A DNA stretch of 64,000 nt, taken from the NCBI GenBank assembly GCA_015272515.1, contig JACYLN010000019.1:1-64000 (forward strand), written 5' to 3'. Origin of the DNA: Leptolyngbyaceae cyanobacterium C42_A2020_001. Its GTDB lineage: Bacteria > Cyanobacteriota > Cyanobacteriia > Leptolyngbyales > Leptolyngbyaceae. The notes beneath the pieces were generated by a model that was given only the letters and a program-made list of their open reading frames with translations, was not told the origin of the DNA and searched no databases. Shown one piece after another: positions 1 through 52,300 of this stretch. The number at the start of each line of letters is the position of its first letter. Within the stretch, counting starts at the first letter, position 1. Both the position numbers and the translations under genes were made by a program.

Positions 1-172
1 TGAGCAGAGCACCCTGCAACTACCGACTATTATCTCTTATTTCCCAACAGGTCTACTACATATCTTTGGCTACGCTGCCGTAGAGATATCCCAAACTTCT
101 TGCTAGTGTACTTGTTCACAGACACTCCCTTAAAATCACAATCTGTACAAGCAATAGCATTGTAAGCCTTCT

Positions 173-257
173 GCCTAACGGTAAAGTTGTGCGGCGGCCG
201 ACAAACTTGAATTCCCACCGATAATCTCTTTCCGGCTGCACCAACGAAGTGTTGGGC
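173..257 (-). other. attC-like integron recombination site (putative)
   Basis: Minus strand reads GCCCAAC-ACTTC-GTTGGTGC-(45 nt)-GCACAAC-TTTACC-GTTAGGC: R''(RYYYAAC), 5-nt spacer, 8-nt L'', 7-nt L', 6-nt spacer, R'(GTTRRRY). L''/L' pair with one extrahelical G. Confidence 0.7.
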
Positions 258-269
258 GGCTCTTTTGCA

Positions 270-686
270 TTAACGAGATCGCTCCCACACCTGCTGCCAG
301 AGGTCAAGCCGTTGCTTGAGCGGATCAGTTCCGGCAGTAATACCGCTATTGGTGAACTGCATCAGGCGATCGACTGCCGGATTATGCTGTTCCCACATTG
401 GTCGTCCCCCGCCATTTGGATTCCCTGTTTTACCAAATTGCGCCCAGTAGCCACTTGTCAGATCCGCCATTTGGCGATCGCTGGGTGTGACGGCAAAATT
501 TGGGATGCCCTGAGCTAAGGGTTGAATTGCATCAGGCACATTGAAGGCAAAAGGAATCTCGCAGCCATGACGAGTGCCCATGTCTCGACCTCGCATCCCT
601 TGGAACACATAGGCATAGCGATAGAGCCAAACGGGTTGACCAGCCTGCGCCATTTCAGATGTCAAGCGATGGAAACAAACATACAC
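270..686 (-). pseudogene. carboxylesterase type B C-terminal fragment
   Basis: 138-aa ORF resembling the C-terminal part of type B carboxylesterases (QPVWLYRYAYVFQGMRG..HGCEIPFAF..MADLTSGYWAQFGKTGNPNG); no catalytic Ser region and no extension upstream in frame. Confidence 0.55.
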
Positions 687-740
687 CTTACAAGAACCGC
701 TACGATGATGTCTTCAGCCGAAACGACAAAGCAGCCCAAC

Positions 741-860
741 AACTTATTTATGCCGAAATTTTCTGGATAATCCGCTTAAGTAGGGCATTATCGAGAAGTT
801 TTCTGCATACTTCACTCAAGTAGGATATTATCGAGAAATTTTCCACATAATATCCCTATG
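741..860. repeat. about three imperfect 40-bp tandem repeats
   Basis: TAGGGCATTATCGAGAAGTTTTCTGCATACTTCACTCAAG (781-820) followed by TAGGATATTATCGAGAAATTTTCCACATAATATCCCTATG (821-860); 741-780 is a more diverged copy in register. Confidence 0.65.
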
Positions 861-983: not shown

Positions 984-2330
984 CTATTTTCGCAACTTAG
1001 CTTGAGCCGATTTCAGCATCACCTGAGCCTCAGTATAAACGGTCGTATCTTTTTGTACTTTCTTTAGTTCGCTGATAATTCTTTGCATCTCACTCACTTG
1101 TTGACGATTTAAGGCTTTTGCACTATCAGGAATGGATGCAATGAGAGATTGAGTGAGCTGCTGAGCGCGTTCATAGGATTCTACAGAGGTTTGTTCTTGG
1201 ACTAATCTCAGCCGAGTGCTAGAAAGTTTCTGCTTGTATTTCTCCAGCAATTTTCGAGAGGCAACAAAATCAGGATCGTTTACCTCAATGGTGTTAATTT
1301 GGGCGATCGCGTCCTCCCAAAGTTTCACCGCTTCCTGCCATTCTGCTGCGGTTTGCACTGGCTTATTGGAGAACTTCTGCGCCGTTTCTGCCGCTAGTTT
1401 AGAGGCTTGAATTACACTGCCAGAACGCACATTGTCTGCCGTAAAGCCTGCCACCTGTTGAAAATCGCGCTCGTAAGCGATCAATTTCGTTCGAGCAGTT
1501 TTGCCTGCAAGCGTTTCAGAGGGCAGCGCCCGCAGGTCATCCATGCCCTGTTGCCATTGCGCCAGCACCGTTTGCTTTTGAGCAATGTCATTCACCTGTT
1601 GATACTGTTGTTTCGCAGTAGCGATCGTCTGCTCTGCTTCAGTTAATTTGGTTTGGGCATTCTTTTCTTGAAACAGCGTTGCCTGCATCCGTGCCACATT
1701 TTTGCGTGCCTGCTGAAACTCATCCAGCGTAAACCGCCAGCTACATTGAAACCAACTGCAATAGGTGCCGGGGTAGTAACCCAGGAACCAGACAGGCAAG
1801 GCATCCAGATGCTTTTGTGCCTGCTCGACTCTGGTAGCACCCAGTTCAAAATCTGCCGGACTGGTGGCTTGATTCACCAGTTGATCCGCTTGTTCCGTTG
1901 CCGCGATCGCCTGCCGATAGTTGTGATCCATGCTGATGAAACTGGGCAGCAGTACCATGGGCATCGTTTTTGCGACCGGGTATCGAATCATCGGGTAGGG
2001 CAAGTTGAGAACCCAAACACCGCCGACAATGCTTGTGAGCGCGATCGCCCCCCACTTGATCTGGTTGAGCAGTTTGGATGGCGGACGGTTGGCTTTTGCT
2101 GCCTTGCGTAACACTTTCTCATCGAAGTCGGGGAACAAATCGTCGAGCGAGTCTTTCAATTCCTCAACCGTTAAAGGATTTCCCGGTCTTGCACACAACT
2201 TTTCCAGGCGTTTCAGTGCAATTTCTTGTTGCACCTGACCAGCGGGGCTGCTAGCGCATCGGCGTTGAATCTCCGCTTTCAAAATTTCAAAGGCAGACTG
2301 ATTGAGGCAAACCATGAGTTGAGATGGCAA
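984..2330 (-). CDS. hypothetical protein with one TM segment and Gln/Ala-rich coiled-coil region
   Basis: 448-aa ORF, hydrophobic segment IKWGAIALTSIVGGVWVLNLPY, long helical tail. Confidence 0.8.
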   Translation of the reverse strand: MPSQLMVCLNQSAFEILKAEIQRRCASSPAGQVQQEIALKRLEKLCARPGNPLTVEELKDSLDDLFPDFDEKVLRKAAKANRPPSKLLNQIKWGAIALTSIVGGVWVLNLPYPMIRYPVAKTMPMVLLPSFISMDHNYRQAIAATEQADQLVNQATSPADFELGATRVEQAQKHLDALPVWFLGYYPGTYCSWFQCSWRFTLDEFQQARKNVARMQATLFQEKNAQTKLTEAEQTIATAKQQYQQVNDIAQKQTVLAQWQQGMDDLRALPSETLAGKTARTKLIAYERDFQQVAGFTADNVRSGSVIQASKLAAETAQKFSNKPVQTAAEWQEAVKLWEDAIAQINTIEVNDPDFVASRKLLEKYKQKLSSTRLRLVQEQTSVESYERAQQLTQSLIASIPDSAKALNRQQVSEMQRIISELKKVQKDTTVYTEAQVMLKSAQAKLRK

Positions 2331-2394: not shown

Positions 2395-3372
2395 CTAATT
2401 CGGAATAAACAAATCGACAATAAACGGCAGATGATCCGAATCAATATTGGCACCTACGCGAGTATCTCGAACTTGAATCTCTGGACTGACTAAAGCATGA
2501 TCAATTGGAATCCACAGGAGAGGTTTGAGCGAGGCAAGCAGAGGATGGGTACTGGCAAACTGAGTTGGCGCGGGCCAGGTGGGTAAAATGCCATATCCTT
2601 GACGAGTATTTTTCAAGCCAGTCTTACTTTTGAGTCGTTTGTAATAGGGCGACCACATTGTTGTATTTAAGTCACCAATCAGGACAATTGGAGTTTTTTG
2701 CTTTTGAATGTAATCGGTGACTTGCTGGAGTTCAGCATTGCGAAATGCCGCAAGGCTAGGTAAGGGTGGAAGCGGATGAGTAGTGACCAGCATGGCTTTA
2801 CGACCATTGACCGTGATGGTGGCAGAGATTAAATCCTGTTTCGCAGACCCGAAAAGGGTGGGATTTTCCAGCGGAATGCGGCTAAAAACAGCAATATCTT
2901 TAGGAGCTTCAAAGACATAGGGCATTTGAGTCTTGAGTGGTTCCAACGACTGTAGCCAATGCTCATCTCGTTCCTGAAACACGGCAATATCTGGTTTTTC
3001 AGCTTCGATCAACGCCAAAATTTTGTCAGGATTTTGATTTCGCACGTACAGGTTTGATAGCAGAATTCGCAGGTTATGCGATGGGGGCGCGATCGCCGAT
3101 GGCACATACCAGGGCATGACTTCAACCAATTGCAGCGCCACGCAGAATAACGCAACTAACACCCAAGTGCGATGGCGTAATAAACCCAACGGCACTAGCA
3201 GCAGTGAGCTAAGCATCAAATACTGCACCTTGAAGTGACTGGTTAATTCCAGGTAAGGATGCCATGCAACCAGACTGAGTAACGAGACGAGCGTCAACAG
3301 GACAATACCGCTACCCAGTAGCCAGACCAGGTTGCGGACAAGGGGCAGTTTAGTTAAAGGATAAGATGGCAT
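2395..3372 (-). CDS. endonuclease/exonuclease/phosphatase family protein
   Basis: N-terminal TM helices, then RILLSNLYVRNQN..IAVFQERDEHW..IGDLNTTMWSPYY..IDHALVS..DSDHLPFIVDL typical of the EEP fold. Confidence 0.85.
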   Translation of the reverse strand: MPSYPLTKLPLVRNLVWLLGSGIVLLTLVSLLSLVAWHPYLELTSHFKVQYLMLSSLLLVPLGLLRHRTWVLVALFCVALQLVEVMPWYVPSAIAPPSHNLRILLSNLYVRNQNPDKILALIEAEKPDIAVFQERDEHWLQSLEPLKTQMPYVFEAPKDIAVFSRIPLENPTLFGSAKQDLISATITVNGRKAMLVTTHPLPPLPSLAAFRNAELQQVTDYIQKQKTPIVLIGDLNTTMWSPYYKRLKSKTGLKNTRQGYGILPTWPAPTQFASTHPLLASLKPLLWIPIDHALVSPEIQVRDTRVGANIDSDHLPFIVDLFIPN

Positions 3373-3467
3373 GAATAAACTGGGCGATCGCGACAGGATT
3401 AGCTACACCCAGTATTCCATCGACTCCTTAGAATCAGAGCTGACTTCATCAAAAAATGATGCCAAGA

Positions 3468-4166
3468 TTACGCTGCTGCACTTAACACCGAATTACTGGC
3501 TAATTTGCCATCTTCCATGTGCACGATGCGATCGGCAACATCCAAAATCCGGTTGTCATGCGTTACCAGCAGAATCGTGCAGCCCTGCTCTTTTGCTAAC
3601 GTTTGCATCAAGTTCACCACATCCCGCCCTGATTTACTGTCTAATGCGGCTGTCGGTTCATCTGCCAGCACAATTTTAGGATGGCTCACCAGGGCGCGGG
3701 CGATCGCCACTCGCTGTTTCTGCCCACCCGATAAATCGTCGGGATAATAGTTGAGCCGCTTGCCTAAGCCTACATGCTCCAGCATTTCTGCGGCTCGTTC
3801 ATACATCACTTGCGAAGACAGATGATTGTGCAATTCCAAGCCCATTTTGACGTTCTGTACGGCAGTCAGACTGTTATGCAAGTTATGCGCCTGAAAAATG
3901 TAGCCGTTTTTTCGACGTGCAAATGTGAGTTGTGAGGCACTGGCTCCGCACAACTCTTGACCTAATACTTGCAAACTTCCAGACTGAGCTGAGCGTAATC
4001 CACCGACTAAGGTCAGCAATGTGGTTTTTCCTGAACCAGAAGGTCCAGTCATAATCACAATTTCACCTGCACAAATATCTAAACTGACATCAAATAAAAC
4101 TTGCTTGCGGAGTTTATCTTGTCCAAAGAAGTGATTGAGATTTTGGATAGAGATGATAGGAGACAT
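3468..4166 (-). CDS. devA: DevA-family ABC transporter ATP-binding protein
   Basis: Walker A GPSGSGKT, signature LSGGQKQRVAIARAL, Walker B IVLADEPTAALD; adjacent to DevC/DevB-like genes. Confidence 0.85.
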   Translation of the reverse strand: MSPIISIQNLNHFFGQDKLRKQVLFDVSLDICAGEIVIMTGPSGSGKTTLLTLVGGLRSAQSGSLQVLGQELCGASASQLTFARRKNGYIFQAHNLHNSLTAVQNVKMGLELHNHLSSQVMYERAAEMLEHVGLGKRLNYYPDDLSGGQKQRVAIARALVSHPKIVLADEPTAALDSKSGRDVVNLMQTLAKEQGCTILLVTHDNRILDVADRIVHMEDGKLASNSVLSAAA

Positions 4167-4175
4167 GGGTAATCC

Positions 4176-5351
4176 TTAAAACATATCAGCCGGATCAGCA
4201 GATTGCAGCTTGCGGGTGGCGATCGCACCCGAAATTATGCACATAATGATCGTCAGAATCAGCACCATAATGGCTCGTGAGGCAGTCATCATGATGGGCA
4301 GGGCGGTAGCATTTGCGGCGAGTTTATAAAGCCCAATTGGCAAAATGAAGCCAGGAATGAATCCTAGGAGAGCCAGAATAATCGCTTCTTCAAAGACAAT
4401 CGCGAGTAGATATTGATTGCGATAGCCCATTGCTTTGAAGGTGGCATATTCTTTCAAATGACTATTGACATCCGTTGAAAGCACTTGATACACAATCACC
4501 ACGCCCACAACAAATGCCATTGCGGTTCCCAATCCAAAAATGAATCCAATCGGACTTTCAGTTTTCCAAAAGCTTTCTTCAAACTCGATGTATTCTTTGT
4601 GCGTTAAAACCCGCACATCATTAGCAAGATGGGCTTCAAGCTGTGCTGCAACTTGTTTCGCATCATAGCCTGGTTCTAGTTTAATTAAGCCTAAACTGGC
4701 GCTAGCAGCTTCTCGACGCGGGAAGAAGTGTAAAAAGGTTTGGTCACTGGCGATGAGAATGCCATCGGCTCCAAAAGACGCACCTAAGGCGAATAATCCA
4801 CCAATCGTGATCGTTCGGCGTTCAACTTCGGTGGTGGTTGGTTTGCCCTGCTCCACTTGCGCGATCGCTTGTTTGTAGTTGCCTCTAGAGTTGCGATCAA
4901 ACAACACCTGATCCGGCAATTTGATCACGTTCAATTGCTGGTTCACTTCGGGTAGGTTCAGCGCTGGCTGATCGGGATTAAAGGCAATCACCTGAATCGA
5001 GGTGTCTTTGCGGGTGTCGGGATGTTTCCAGGTAATGACGTTGGAATAAAACGGTTCAGCCGATTGCACACCCGGAATATCTTTTGCCTGATACAGGCGA
5101 CGACGAGAAAACGTTCCCAAATTTTGAGTATTCCGCGCCTGGGGACTGACTAACACAATATCGGCATCTAGAGCACGACTCAGTTTTGTGTTGCTGTCAT
5201 ACAATGCACTTTGAAAACCGAGTTGCATAAACATCAACACATCAGCAAAGGCAATCCCCGATAACGCCACGAGCAAGCGACTGCGTTCCTTACTCAGTTG
5301 CAGCCATCCTAGCGGAGTGCGGCGTTGAATTTGTTGAATCAGTCCTGTCAT
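4176..5351 (-). CDS. devC: DevC-family ABC transporter permease
   Basis: 391 aa, FtsX-like permease with TPLGWLQLSKERSRLLVALSGIAFADVLMFMQLGF N-terminus; between devA-like and devB-like genes. Confidence 0.85.
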   Translation of the reverse strand: MTGLIQQIQRRTPLGWLQLSKERSRLLVALSGIAFADVLMFMQLGFQSALYDSNTKLSRALDADIVLVSPQARNTQNLGTFSRRRLYQAKDIPGVQSAEPFYSNVITWKHPDTRKDTSIQVIAFNPDQPALNLPEVNQQLNVIKLPDQVLFDRNSRGNYKQAIAQVEQGKPTTTEVERRTITIGGLFALGASFGADGILIASDQTFLHFFPRREAASASLGLIKLEPGYDAKQVAAQLEAHLANDVRVLTHKEYIEFEESFWKTESPIGFIFGLGTAMAFVVGVVIVYQVLSTDVNSHLKEYATFKAMGYRNQYLLAIVFEEAIILALLGFIPGFILPIGLYKLAANATALPIMMTASRAIMVLILTIIMCIISGAIATRKLQSADPADMF

Positions 5352-6538
5352 TGTTCAATTACCGCCGTGATTTGCAAGTTGGTAAATTTTTTGGCTTGTT
5401 GGCTCGATGCTGGATCTAACCCCACATGAACTTCCACGATGCGGCTGTCAATGTTGGTGCTGGGGTCCGTGTTAACGATAGTTTGTCGCTTCACCTGGGA
5501 ATCAATCCGTTCAACTCTTCCCACCAGTTCACCGGGAATTGAATCGCTAGTGACTCGCACTCGTTGACCTGGTTTTACCTTGCTGATGTCGCTTTGATAG
5601 ACTTCGGCGATCGCGTACATCTGTTGCGTTTTACCAATCTCAGCAATGCCCTCATTAGAAACAACTTCCCCAGCGCGAGTGTGAATCGCTAAGACCTCGC
5701 CATCCATCGGCGATCGCACATAGGCTTGATCCAAATCTGCTTTTGCCCGGTTCATTGCTGCAACAGCGCGATCCACTTCCGCCTGATTCGCCCGCACATC
5801 CACCGGACGTACTTCTGCAATCCGCTCCAGGTTCGCCTGCGCCTGGTTCAGTTGCGCGGGACTGGTCGATCGAATGCGACCTAAGACTGCTTCAGCTTCT
5901 TGCACACTTCTTCGAGCCGTGTCTAGTGCTAAACGTCGCCGATCCAGATCAGACGAGGAAATCGCACCTTCTTGATACAGAGACTGATAGCGGTTAAATT
6001 CCGTTTCAGCATTTTGCAACTCCGAGGTTAAACGGGCAACCGTTGCTGATTGAGCATTAATATCCCCCTGCCGCTGCGCCTCTAGCCGAGCAATTTCAGC
6101 CCGTTGGGCATTAATTTCGCCTTGCTTGGCTCCGGCTTGAGTGATCGCAAGCTTTGCCTGTGCCACTTTCACATCTTCTTGTGCTTGTTCGTAGGCTGCC
6201 TGCAAGCGATCGCGGCTATCCAAAATCGCAACCACTTGTCCCGTTTTGACGCGATCGCCCTCCCGCACCAGCAATTGCTCCACCCGGTTGCCATTGTTTG
6301 ACGTGGGAGCCGATAGTTTTATGACTTCGCCCTGGGGTTCCAGTCTCCCCAAAGCCGTAACCGTTGTGATTTTGGCTGGAGTGACCGCTGCCGACTGACT
6401 TGCTGCTTGCTGAGTAGACTGCGATCGCCAAACTCCATACCCTGCACTGCCAGCAACCAAAACCAGCGTAGTAGCCGCAAATCCGACCCAGCGACGGGTT
6501 TTCGTCTGAGAAATGCTGTCAAGCGAACTTTGCAGCAT
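5348..6538 (-). CDS. devB: DevB/HlyD-family periplasmic adaptor subunit
   Basis: N-terminal TM, TVTALGRLEPQGEVIKLSAP, coiled-coil, VRSPMDGEVLAIHTRAGE; overlaps devC start. Confidence 0.85.
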   Translation of the reverse strand: MLQSSLDSISQTKTRRWVGFAATTLVLVAGSAGYGVWRSQSTQQAASQSAAVTPAKITTVTALGRLEPQGEVIKLSAPTSNNGNRVEQLLVREGDRVKTGQVVAILDSRDRLQAAYEQAQEDVKVAQAKLAITQAGAKQGEINAQRAEIARLEAQRQGDINAQSATVARLTSELQNAETEFNRYQSLYQEGAISSSDLDRRRLALDTARRSVQEAEAVLGRIRSTSPAQLNQAQANLERIAEVRPVDVRANQAEVDRAVAAMNRAKADLDQAYVRSPMDGEVLAIHTRAGEVVSNEGIAEIGKTQQMYAIAEVYQSDISKVKPGQRVRVTSDSIPGELVGRVERIDSQVKRQTIVNTDPSTNIDSRIVEVHVGLDPASSQQAKKFTNLQITAVIEQ

Positions 6539-15988: not shown

Positions 15989-16705
15989 ATGACACCTGTA
16001 AATCTAAAACGCTTTACATGGGTTTCTTTAACGTTGTTATTCCTTTGCTACACCTGGTTTGGCTGGTATCTAGCAGGGTTACAGACTCAACCTGCGTGGC
16101 TCCCCTCTGCCTGCTATCAGTTGCTGAGCGCTCCAACCCAGCGGGCAACCGTTCCAGATTCACCAGATTCGACCCAACCAAGCACTATATCGACTCCCAA
16201 TCAAGTTCCTGAAACAGCGATCGCGCCTTCCTCCCAAACTGCGGAACTTCAACCAGCCAAACCCCTGGAATCATCAACGTCACCTCAAAAACCTCCCCAT
16301 TTGGCGAATCAACCCAGCCAACCAGCAGTTTCTAGTTTCAGCCGCTCAACCTGTGATTTTGTAATTCAGCACAATTTGCCCGCTGGGTTTCTGGCAGTGA
16401 GTTGGGTGTTCCTGTCTTCAATGGCATTCATTTCACCCCTAACAAGTTTTAGTGGTTTTATCAGTCGTTGGTTTAAATCAGACACAGTGGCAATGCTGAC
16501 CCTATTTATGCTGGCAGGGATGGCGGCAGTGATTCTTTATTGGCTACACCTGTTTCTGCAAATTTTGACGATTTTAGCAACTGATGTGCTGGCTAGGATC
16601 GATATTCAATGTCTTGGGTTGAGCGGGATACAAGCCTTTTGGATTCTTGTTTCAATTTCCTTAACTGGACTCGTGAGCGGTTGGATAGGCAACGCAATTT
16701 TTTGA
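15989..16705 (+). CDS. hypothetical membrane protein (three or four hydrophobic segments)
   Basis: ATG at 15989 preceded by GGAGAAAC; N-terminal TM, Ser/Pro/Thr-rich linker, C-terminal TM helices. Confidence 0.7.
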   Translation: MTPVNLKRFTWVSLTLLFLCYTWFGWYLAGLQTQPAWLPSACYQLLSAPTQRATVPDSPDSTQPSTISTPNQVPETAIAPSSQTAELQPAKPLESSTSPQKPPHLANQPSQPAVSSFSRSTCDFVIQHNLPAGFLAVSWVFLSSMAFISPLTSFSGFISRWFKSDTVAMLTLFMLAGMAAVILYWLHLFLQILTILATDVLARIDIQCLGLSGIQAFWILVSISLTGLVSGWIGNAIF

Positions 16706-17271: not shown

Positions 17272-17402
17272 ATCTTTGGCATCTCCAAATGGCTACTTTT
17301 TCTATCCATCAGAAAGTTGATGTAGACCAAGCATTTCAGCGGTTTACCTGGATCTAATCTTTCTGATTAAAGCTATATTTTACGCCGTTGAGGGATGAGA
17401 AA

Positions 17403-17428
17403 ACCCCAACTCATTACTGGGTTGGGGT
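17403..17428. terminator. hairpin ACCCCAAC/GTTGGGGT
   Basis: ACCCCAAC (17403-17410) and GTTGGGGT (17421-17428), 10-nt loop. Confidence 0.45.
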
Positions 17429-17910
17429 GCCAAATCAGGGTGCATCTACCACCTACTGAATTCCCGTGCAAAGCGATCGCATCCGGAGAGTTTTGTGGAG
17501 AAACCTTGAAGCTTGTCCAGTGTGGCTTGAAGTTTCAGTAACGTTTTTATCAGAACAGGCGGGTGCAGAGGTCTGCGTGTCAGCATACATAAAGTGCACA
17601 GGATGCCACTTCACGAAACTTTAATAAGCGGCTCATCAGAATTGCTGAATTGCCTGGGATGAGCGAGAGTGGAGAAAGGTTCCAAATCACTCACGTTATC
17701 TATCAATCTAGGGTTTGCTTTCTGCCAGTTAAATCTGGGTACACTGAGAGACGGTCAGTTGACTCAGTAATTTCAAATTCAGCCTGATACATCCTTTCAA
17801 CCGTTGATTTAGGAAAAAGGGACGATACAGTTCAACAGTCGAAGCTTCTCTGGAAGACTGTACGTCATTGTAAGCAGGCAGCGCATCCACCGTTTTCTGG
17901 GAGGGGCATT

Positions 17911-49355: not shown

Positions 49356-52300
49356 CTAACGAGGCTTCTGCGCGATCGCCTGCTGAATATGTTCTAGCAG
49401 TTCGGTCATTGAAGTAGGGGGAGCCAGAATTTGACTAGCAAGTTGCCGTGCTTGTTCCGGCAAAGGGTTTAGCGTCGTTTCTTCCAATTCTGGGTCACGA
49501 TGGTCAAGCACAATAATCGGCGGCTTGGATTCCATTGCGCTCAGTTCCACTAGTCGTGCCAGCACTTCAGGCTGCGGCTCTCCATTCGTCCAGCAAAGCA
49601 ACAGCAAGTCTACACTTTCAGACTCAATTTGCTGCAGGACTTCCTGCCAGGAACGCCCCATCATTCCTCGCAACCCCGCTGTTTGTAAGTACTGAATCAA
49701 CGCTTGCAGCCACTCCGTTTCTTTGGGGAGTTGCCCCAACGCCTCATTCCCCACATTAAAAGATTTACCACTTTCCGTATTGCTGGGTAGGGTTGAAACA
49801 TTCATCGCTAAAATAGACGGCCGCCATACGCATCCTGCCGCGATTTGAATCACTTGCAGCAGCGTTGCCATCTCTGGAGAATCGTCCTCAACCGCGTTGC
49901 CATCTGTCTCTATAAGACAGGGAAAGATCAACAGTCCAGGAATTTGGCTGGCTGCCTGCGTCGTCTTTTGAGCGAGCGTCACAATGGGTAGGGATGCCAG
50001 CATCGGGTGATAGCTCAACTGTCGCAAGTAATCACTGGGATTGTCCAAATCTCCCCCCAGCAAGACCACATTCGGTTTCCAAACGCGGGCAAGCAGTTCT
50101 GCCTGGTCTAAATCGTCAGACTCTAAAATTCGATAGCGACGTGCCTGGAGCGATCGATTGAGGTGTTCGATCGCCGTTGATTCGGGCTGATTATCTTCGC
50201 TGCTTGCAAACAGATGCAGAATTGTGAGGTTACTAGCAGCACGAGCAGGTATATCCAGTTCTTTAGGATCAATCAACAAGTGTTGCAGGGTTTGCTTCAG
50301 CTCTTTCGGTTGAATCGGCAATTTCAGAAACCCATCTGCCCGATTCCGAAATGCCTCATCCTCATCAATCACAGTAGCGGTAATAGCAACGGGGATTGCC
50401 TCGGTTTCAGTATTGGATTTCAGCAGCGTTAACACATCCCAACCCGACAAAAGCGGCAGCAACGGGTTCAGAAAGATAATGCAAGGTTGCAGACGGCGGG
50501 CTTTTTCCAGTGCCTCGGTGCCTGATCGCGCAATCACCACTCGATAGCCCAGCCCAATTAGTTGCTCGGAGAGAGATTCTACAAACTGAGGCACGGTATC
50601 CACAATCAACATCAAGCGATCGCGGAGCTTGGGTAGTACCGAAGACGCGCTGCCGGATGCCTCCAGTACATCCCGTTGAGAATACCGGTTTGGGAATAAT
50701 AGCGGTACCCGCCCACTGGGGTAAGCAGCCAGTTGCTCATCTAATTCCTCGTCGTCCGTAGCACGCCCTCGTGTCAGTTGGGTGCGATCGGGTGGGGTCG
50801 GGGGTAGCAGAATTGTAAACTGGCTTCCCTGATGTTCTTTGGAGATGAACGTCACATCGCCCCCGTGTAACCGAGCCAGGCGACGCGTCAACACCAAACC
50901 CAAACCCGCCCCTTCAAATTGTCGCGTGAGGGGATTTTCGAGCTGTTGAAATTTTTGGAAAATGAGATGTTGCTTCTCTGATGGAATTCCAATTCCTGTA
51001 TCCCAGACGGTGAAAGCAATCCATCCACCCCAACGGCTGACCTTCAACCCCATGGGATGCCCAACTTCAGTGAATTTGAGGGAGTTGGATAGAAGATGAA
51101 CCAACATCTGACGCAGTCGCAGATCATCCGCTACCAACAGCGTTAAGTTTGGCTCAATTTCCAGGGAAAACTGCGCCCCAATTTGTTCAGCCTCTAGGGG
51201 GGATGCTGCTTTGTTGTCCAATAGCCGATTTTGCTTCGCTTGCTCAAAGGCTCGCTGACAGGCGATCTCCACATCCACCGGTCCATACAGCAACTCTAAC
51301 TGCCCCGTTTCAATCCGCGTCAAATCGAGGATATCGTTAACGACACCCATCAAATGACGGCTGCTTTGGTAAATCAGTTGGGCATAGTGAACCTGTCGTT
51401 GGTTGAGTTCTCCTAGCGTCTGGTCTTTCAACAAACTGGACAAACCCAACACAGCAGTTAGCGGTGTTTTTAGCTCATGGCTAATGCACGCCAAAAACTC
51501 ATCTTTTAGACGATTAAGCTGCACAAGATCGGCATTTTTGGCAGTCAACTCTCTGGCAAGGTGCTGTTGCTTGGTCACATCCTGCGACAAAATCAGCCAG
51601 AGCGATTCGCTGGGAGCTTGGGGTAAATCGGGCTGGGTGCGAATGGAGGGAAAATCTTGAACAGCAGAGGCAAACGCATCCGGCAAAGCGGTGGAGGCAT
51701 CTGAGTGGTTTACAGCAAGCGCCGCCAGAGTAAAGGGACGAGACGAGACTGAAGACGATTCGGTTGAATGGGCAGTGGCTAGACTGGTAGAAGGGGACCA
51801 ATCCAAATTCAAATCTGGCAGGAGTGATCCGAGGGATACTTTGACAAACTGCAAGACTTGCTCCCGCCCATCTTTCAAGGGGCAAACGCAAACGCAGGTG
51901 TTAGGGTTGGTTCCAAGCTGGCAGATACTCTCTGGAGAGGCAACGTCGGTAGCTGGGTTGAGCGATCGCTCTTCTTCAGTCAATCCAAGCGCTCGGAGAT
52001 CGCCATCATCATCGCAGTCTGAGCCTTGCACACCCAGCCAGACCGCAGCCTCCCGCCAAATTTTTGCTGGATCTGACAATTCACCTACCTGGTCACGCCA
52101 AACCCGGTTCTGGGCTACAACTTGCCCACTATCGGTTTGCAACATCAGTGGCAGCGGCAACCGCTCCAACAGTTGCAGCAGTGAGTCCAGAAGTGGTAAG
52201 TGGCTCGGCAAGCTAGCAGTAAGTTTTGCCGCCGCGGTATGCAGCGCTGCATTCATAGGAACAGGCTGCGTACTATGGCGCAATCGCAGATGCAAGATTT

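Follow-up and report, generated by a model that had tools for sequence, protein, structure and literature searches.

The start of the window, the 64,000-nucleotide stretch analysed here (bases 1–64000 of contig C148, in an assembly of 149 contigs), is very probably the remnant of a decayed chromosomal integron in which an attI site, a gene cassette, an attC site and a next cassette cut by an insertion sequence (IS) persist, the integrase gene intI having been lost. Read leftwards along the minus strand, the remnant would comprise an attI-like array, the core GTTGGGC, a cassette carrying an esterase fragment, attC, the opening ~120 bp of a second cassette (or of flanking DNA), and the IS. The preliminary description offered three options for the attC site: a lone attC, part of a CALIN (an attC cluster lacking an integrase), or the edge of an array continuing to the left. 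Although the last option agrees best with the data, the other end of that array lies to the right of the site, in an attI-like region at 734–850 (minus strand), ~480 bp upstream of attC, which had been overlooked.

The attC site occupies positions 173–257 of the minus strand, as identified by covariance models R1 and R3 and by blastn to relatives. Re-reading the sequence gave the same R''–L''–L'–R' architecture as first described: R'' at 257–251 (GCCCAAC), L'' at 245–238 (GTTGGTGC), L' at 192–186 (GCACAAC) and R' at 179–173 (GTTAGGC), with the spacer ACTTC between R'' and L'' and TTTACC between L' and R'. The ends conform to RYYYAAC/GTTRRRY, and the inferred crossover falls between G179 and T178. 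As previously claimed, R'' and R' pair with one mismatch (six of seven positions), and the unequal L'' and L' pair fully apart from a single extrahelical G in L''. Only the distance to the neighbouring ORF needed correction; its stop codon (270–272) lies 12 nt from R'', not 13.

The covariance-model scan proposed in that description was run with model R3, built from 21 sites, all of them from other genomes and none from the source genome; it matched 171–263 (minus strand) with 84.2 bits (E 1.3e-21). By blastn, sites in several other family genomes match the site at 173–257 with 83–85% identity over ~85–100 bp (best E 2e-22), and model R1, built from 24 such sites, scored it at 89.9 bits. In the source genome the attC model matched 13 places, 11 of them with E <1e-3 and several near contig ends, with at least 10 matches in the assembly besides the window site; a covariance-model match and further attC in the same assembly thus uphold the identification. 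No second attC rose above noise in the 64-kb window with model R3. A comparison with Rfam yielded no attC family, the sole match being NsiR1 (nitrogen stress-induced RNA 1) at 17396–17451 (minus strand; 48.7 bits). Integrons of cyanobacteria are already in the literature, as is a covariance model for their attC (PMC8352920; PMC2426708); the window site shows no essential difference from these and is an ordinary further member of the known cyanobacterial attC.

The bottom strand was also folded, as had been suggested. In the canonical attC fold, the bottom strand has roughly twice the stability of the top strand (-10.4 against -5.3 kcal/mol), as the proposed minus-strand polarity predicts; unconstrained folds of the two strands, however, were similar to each other and no better than those of shuffled sequences (z -0.6 and -0.3). 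Covariation of the attC stem gave no information in the alignment of sites, because the sites are too alike. The unremarkable free fold would agree with a resemblance to attC due to chance or to an unrelated palindromic repeat. The probability of this is negligible, since a model trained on other genomes matches the site at E 1e-21 and near-identical sites form arrays in genomes that encode IntI.

In an integron, R'' was formed along with the 5' end of the cassette to which the attC belongs. The core GTTGGGC at 741–735 is an exact complement (7/7) of the attC R'' box GCCCAAC, and the cassette is therefore assigned to 179–740 (minus strand; 562 bp), from the attI core to the attC crossover. Among 43 consecutive cassettes, nearly all from the closed genome G012 of the same genus, 31 have an R'' perfectly complementary to their own 5' core, and 11 an R'' perfectly complementary to the adjacent R'. 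The cassette ORF (270–686, minus strand) encodes the C-terminal fragment of a carboxylesterase (Pfam PF00135, E 1e-14), spanning profile positions 395–515 of 515, the last quarter of the gene; since most of the enzyme is missing, the product is presumably inactive. A more distant esterase relative (47% identity) is encoded elsewhere in the source genome. Beyond the crossover, positions 59–178 (minus strand) read as the start of a next cassette or flank, cut by the IS. Cassette starts recur elsewhere: in G012 one with the start GTTGGGCTGCTTTGTGTTATCCGTAAAGACAG is found at L163:12443, L164:6255 and L170:8174, following attI in one case and attC in the other two, and is a cassette copied within one genome. 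The shared motif GTTGGGCTGCTTTGT was considered as an attI sequence and rejected; it is a cassette 5' end, also found after attC sites.

The attI-like array itself (748–850, minus strand) consists of three 23-bp palindromes at 828–850, 788–810 and 748–770, recognised from the repeats, by blastn and with covariance model R2. The palindromes are spaced 40 bp apart and run into ATAAGTT-GTTGGGC, whose R box at 735–741 (minus strand) forms the attI-like core; the junction TAAGTTGTT is common to the attI sites of L086 and L100, two complete cyanobacterial integrons, and to contig C51 of the source genome. By blastn the array is homologous to DNA immediately preceding intI in L086 (E 6e-10) and L100 (E 2e-9), and model R2, built from 22 attI regions with the window site left out, matched 734–848 with 50 bits (E 1.6e-6). 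A GTTRRRY core heading the first cassette, together with homology to sites beside intI, points to 734–850 as the probable attI-like site of an integron.

This region bears directly on whether a single cassette might instead have been inserted off-target, at a secondary site devoid of attI, by an IntI encoded elsewhere, leaving a lone attC. Off-target insertion by a distant IntI is one proposed origin of integrase-less clusters (PMC8618304), and complete relatives have many single, scattered attC matches. Here, however, the 5' core of the cassette adjoins a region homologous to the attI of complete integrons, and the same attI–cassette–attC arrangement recurs on C51 (attI-like array at L153:8357–8470), a near twin of the window with the same attI type, one full-length cassette and an attC, again without intI. 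Insertion away from any attI is consequently very improbable.

Arrays of this kind are widespread in cyanobacterial attI. Tandem periodicity beyond that of shuffles was detected between intI and the core in 34 of the 43 cyanobacterial loci with enough sequence, always with a period of 39–42, versus 2 of 20 loci from other phyla. Model R2 also recovers most of the cyanobacterial loci on which it was not trained, just upstream of intI. In the alignment of the attI model the palindromes are maintained through two-sided changes (59 cells, versus 39.7 ± 4.7 in shuffles), and their covariation score is 0.228, versus at most 0.157 when slid. Compensatory changes of this kind would be in keeping with a binding site of two-fold symmetry that evolves along with the protein it binds. 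The last palindrome has its right arm at the position of the L box of attI1 (PMC12901181), so that IntI would be the likeliest binder of the palindromes. A scan for TTATC...GATAA as an attI finder was abandoned, as it did not single out attI regions; three loose TTATC-N-GATAA palindromes lie within 200 bp at 50251–50450 of the window, with no match to the attI model.

The class 1 site attI1 contains L and R boxes and the direct repeats DR1 and DR2, both of which bind IntI (PMC12901181; PMC8946536). Cyanobacterial attI resembles it in having a GTTRRRY core with extra repeated boxes upstream, but differs in that several 23–24-bp palindromes at 39–42-bp spacing fill the whole stretch from intI to the core. 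The attIA of Vibrio has no such repeats (PMC8946536).

The abundance of the arrays nevertheless leaves room for the suggestion that the 40-bp palindromic repeats belong to a general class of dispersed repeats, or serve as a regulator's binding array, and happen to lie beside some intI genes without forming part of attI. Matches to the attI model occur in 41 of the 42 genomes of the family, with up to 32 per genome (counts that include both strands of palindromic arrays); most of these hundreds of matches are far from any intact intI, and the palindromic fold in the model could also gather unrelated hairpins. Against this, the arrays fill the stretch from the intI start to the core in 34 of 43 cyanobacterial loci. 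They also keep company with other integron parts: in a set of 24 intI-less arrays from seven genomes (picked from the better matches rather than at random, and with some weak attC matches), the nearest attC lies downstream in the same direction in 14 and elsewhere in 3, while 7 have none in the fetched DNA. Fragments of the 5' end of intI, encoding 43–123 residues, were found on the correct side of five other attI arrays, and at L167:3221–4313 in G012 a broken intI precedes attI repeats, which lead into a long cassette array. A repeat unconnected with attI is thus distinctly unlikely. In another genome (G015, L207:1534–4114), nine similar attC at ~308-bp spacing come directly after an attI with a truncated intI; this series is a tandemly duplicated short cassette.

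The window itself holds no integrase, as had been claimed: the best tblastn match has E 0.22, none falls within 1–1000, and the search of the window revealed no IntI gene or remnant beside attC. Hence no intI adjoins the window attI or attC, as it would in a complete integron. In its place is a conserved gene (984–2330, minus strand) that is 83% identical to its G012 counterpart up to base 985, where the similarity stops. Compared with G012, the segments neighbouring this gene are in inverted orientation and several genes are different, which places a rearrangement breakpoint at the expected position of intI; the breakpoint at 985 also belongs to a larger inversion with respect to G012. A clean empty-site comparison with G012 was thwarted by the rearrangement of the region and by the failure to find, close to the window locus, the GNAT gene that adjoins it in G012. 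Nor did any relative turn up whose array at this locus is empty or different. Further along, an endonuclease/phosphatase-like gene and an ABC exporter set (2395–6538) stand between two genes that are adjacent in G012, and were either inserted in the window or lost in G012.

On the other side, the window begins at contig base 1, with attC 172 bases from the contig end. Positions 1–54 are the end of an IS, and the same 54 bases are present at the ends of contigs C101 and C92; IS repeats break the assembly at this point. Copies of the IS with a transposase ORF occur in genome G014, and the transposase appears by eye to be IS5-family-like. The proposed origins of CALIN include loss of intI, rearrangement and off-target insertion (PMC8618304), and the window shares with CALIN, and with decayed sedentary chromosomal integrons, an attC and a cassette without an adjacent integrase. 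CALIN are defined by two or more attC without an integrase nearby, whereas the window shows one attC, with the contig ending 172 bases to its left, and retains an attI-like site, which the usual definition ignores.

The IntI search that had been proposed located one intact IntI in the same assembly, at C108:15288–16229. It scores 481 bits to TIGR02249 (cut-off 265), the sole stop in its reading frame is the gene's own stop codon, and among solved structures Vibrio IntI4 (2a3v) is its nearest relative. Contig C108 (L008), with its attI stretch at 16378–16489, ends exactly at the attI crossover, ...ATATATAGTT / ...GACGTTGAATATATAGTT; the cultured cells might carry varying cassettes at attI, or the assembly might have been interrupted by a cassette start that is repeated. 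Besides C108 and the window, the attI model matched five loci in the source genome, on C36 (L198:2664–2778), C16 (L199:2387–2503), C70 (L200:4024–4135), C118 (L201:4042–4154) and C51; six of the seven loci are without intI, and no intI remnants were found beside the C36 and C16 arrays. Across the family, IntI above the cut-off is present in 28 of 42 genomes and attC-model matches in all 42, and G012 carries long attC arrays.

One intact IntI and seven attI-model loci might be taken to indicate a distributed integron, in which a single IntI serves several intI-less attI/attC loci in trans and the window is a working satellite platform. The end of C108 at the attI crossover would fit the variable cassettes of such a system, but it would fit any repeat equally. 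The window attI is of a different sequence type from that beside the intact intI, and non-cognate cross-recombination is generally inefficient (PMC8946536). Moreover, the cassette gene is a fragment and the IS cuts the next cassette. A working satellite is therefore unlikely, and a decayed remnant remains the preferred reading.

If the locus is such a remnant, intI would once have lain to the right of attI and was most likely lost in the rearrangement between attI and the gene at 984–2330. The broken intI of G012 and the truncated intI ends beside five other attI arrays would represent stages of such decay, and C51 offers a parallel locus. As is established for integrons, IntI binds attI as double-stranded DNA, circular cassettes are captured via the folded bottom strand of attC, and cassettes are excised by attC x attC recombination. 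When working, IntI would have captured and excised cassettes at the window attI and attC in the same way; today the locus would have no integrase supply of its own. Because attC sites are recognised by shape, the intact C108 IntI might still use the window attC in trans. Capture at the window attI by that integrase appears unlikely, since the attI types differ.

The pattern across the family is most simply explained if integrons were acquired repeatedly and then lost intI, with attI and cassettes persisting. A more far-reaching reading, in which IntI binds the tandem palindromes of cyanobacterial attI and genomes of the family also retain many intI-less attI–cassette platforms open to a single IntI in trans, is unlikely as a whole. 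A literature search that included few subscription papers found no account of palindromic or tandem arrays in cyanobacterial attI, nor of scattered intI-less attI sites; the repeat-array attI looks like a new variant, and both it and its spread are apparently undescribed. Integron specificity resides in attI, and only a few attI sites have been dissected. A conserved array of compensatory palindromes offers a sequence-level handle on the joint change of IntI and attI, as well as a means of finding integrons that have lost intI, and the arrays offer a reason for the single attC sites scattered in cyanobacterial genomes.
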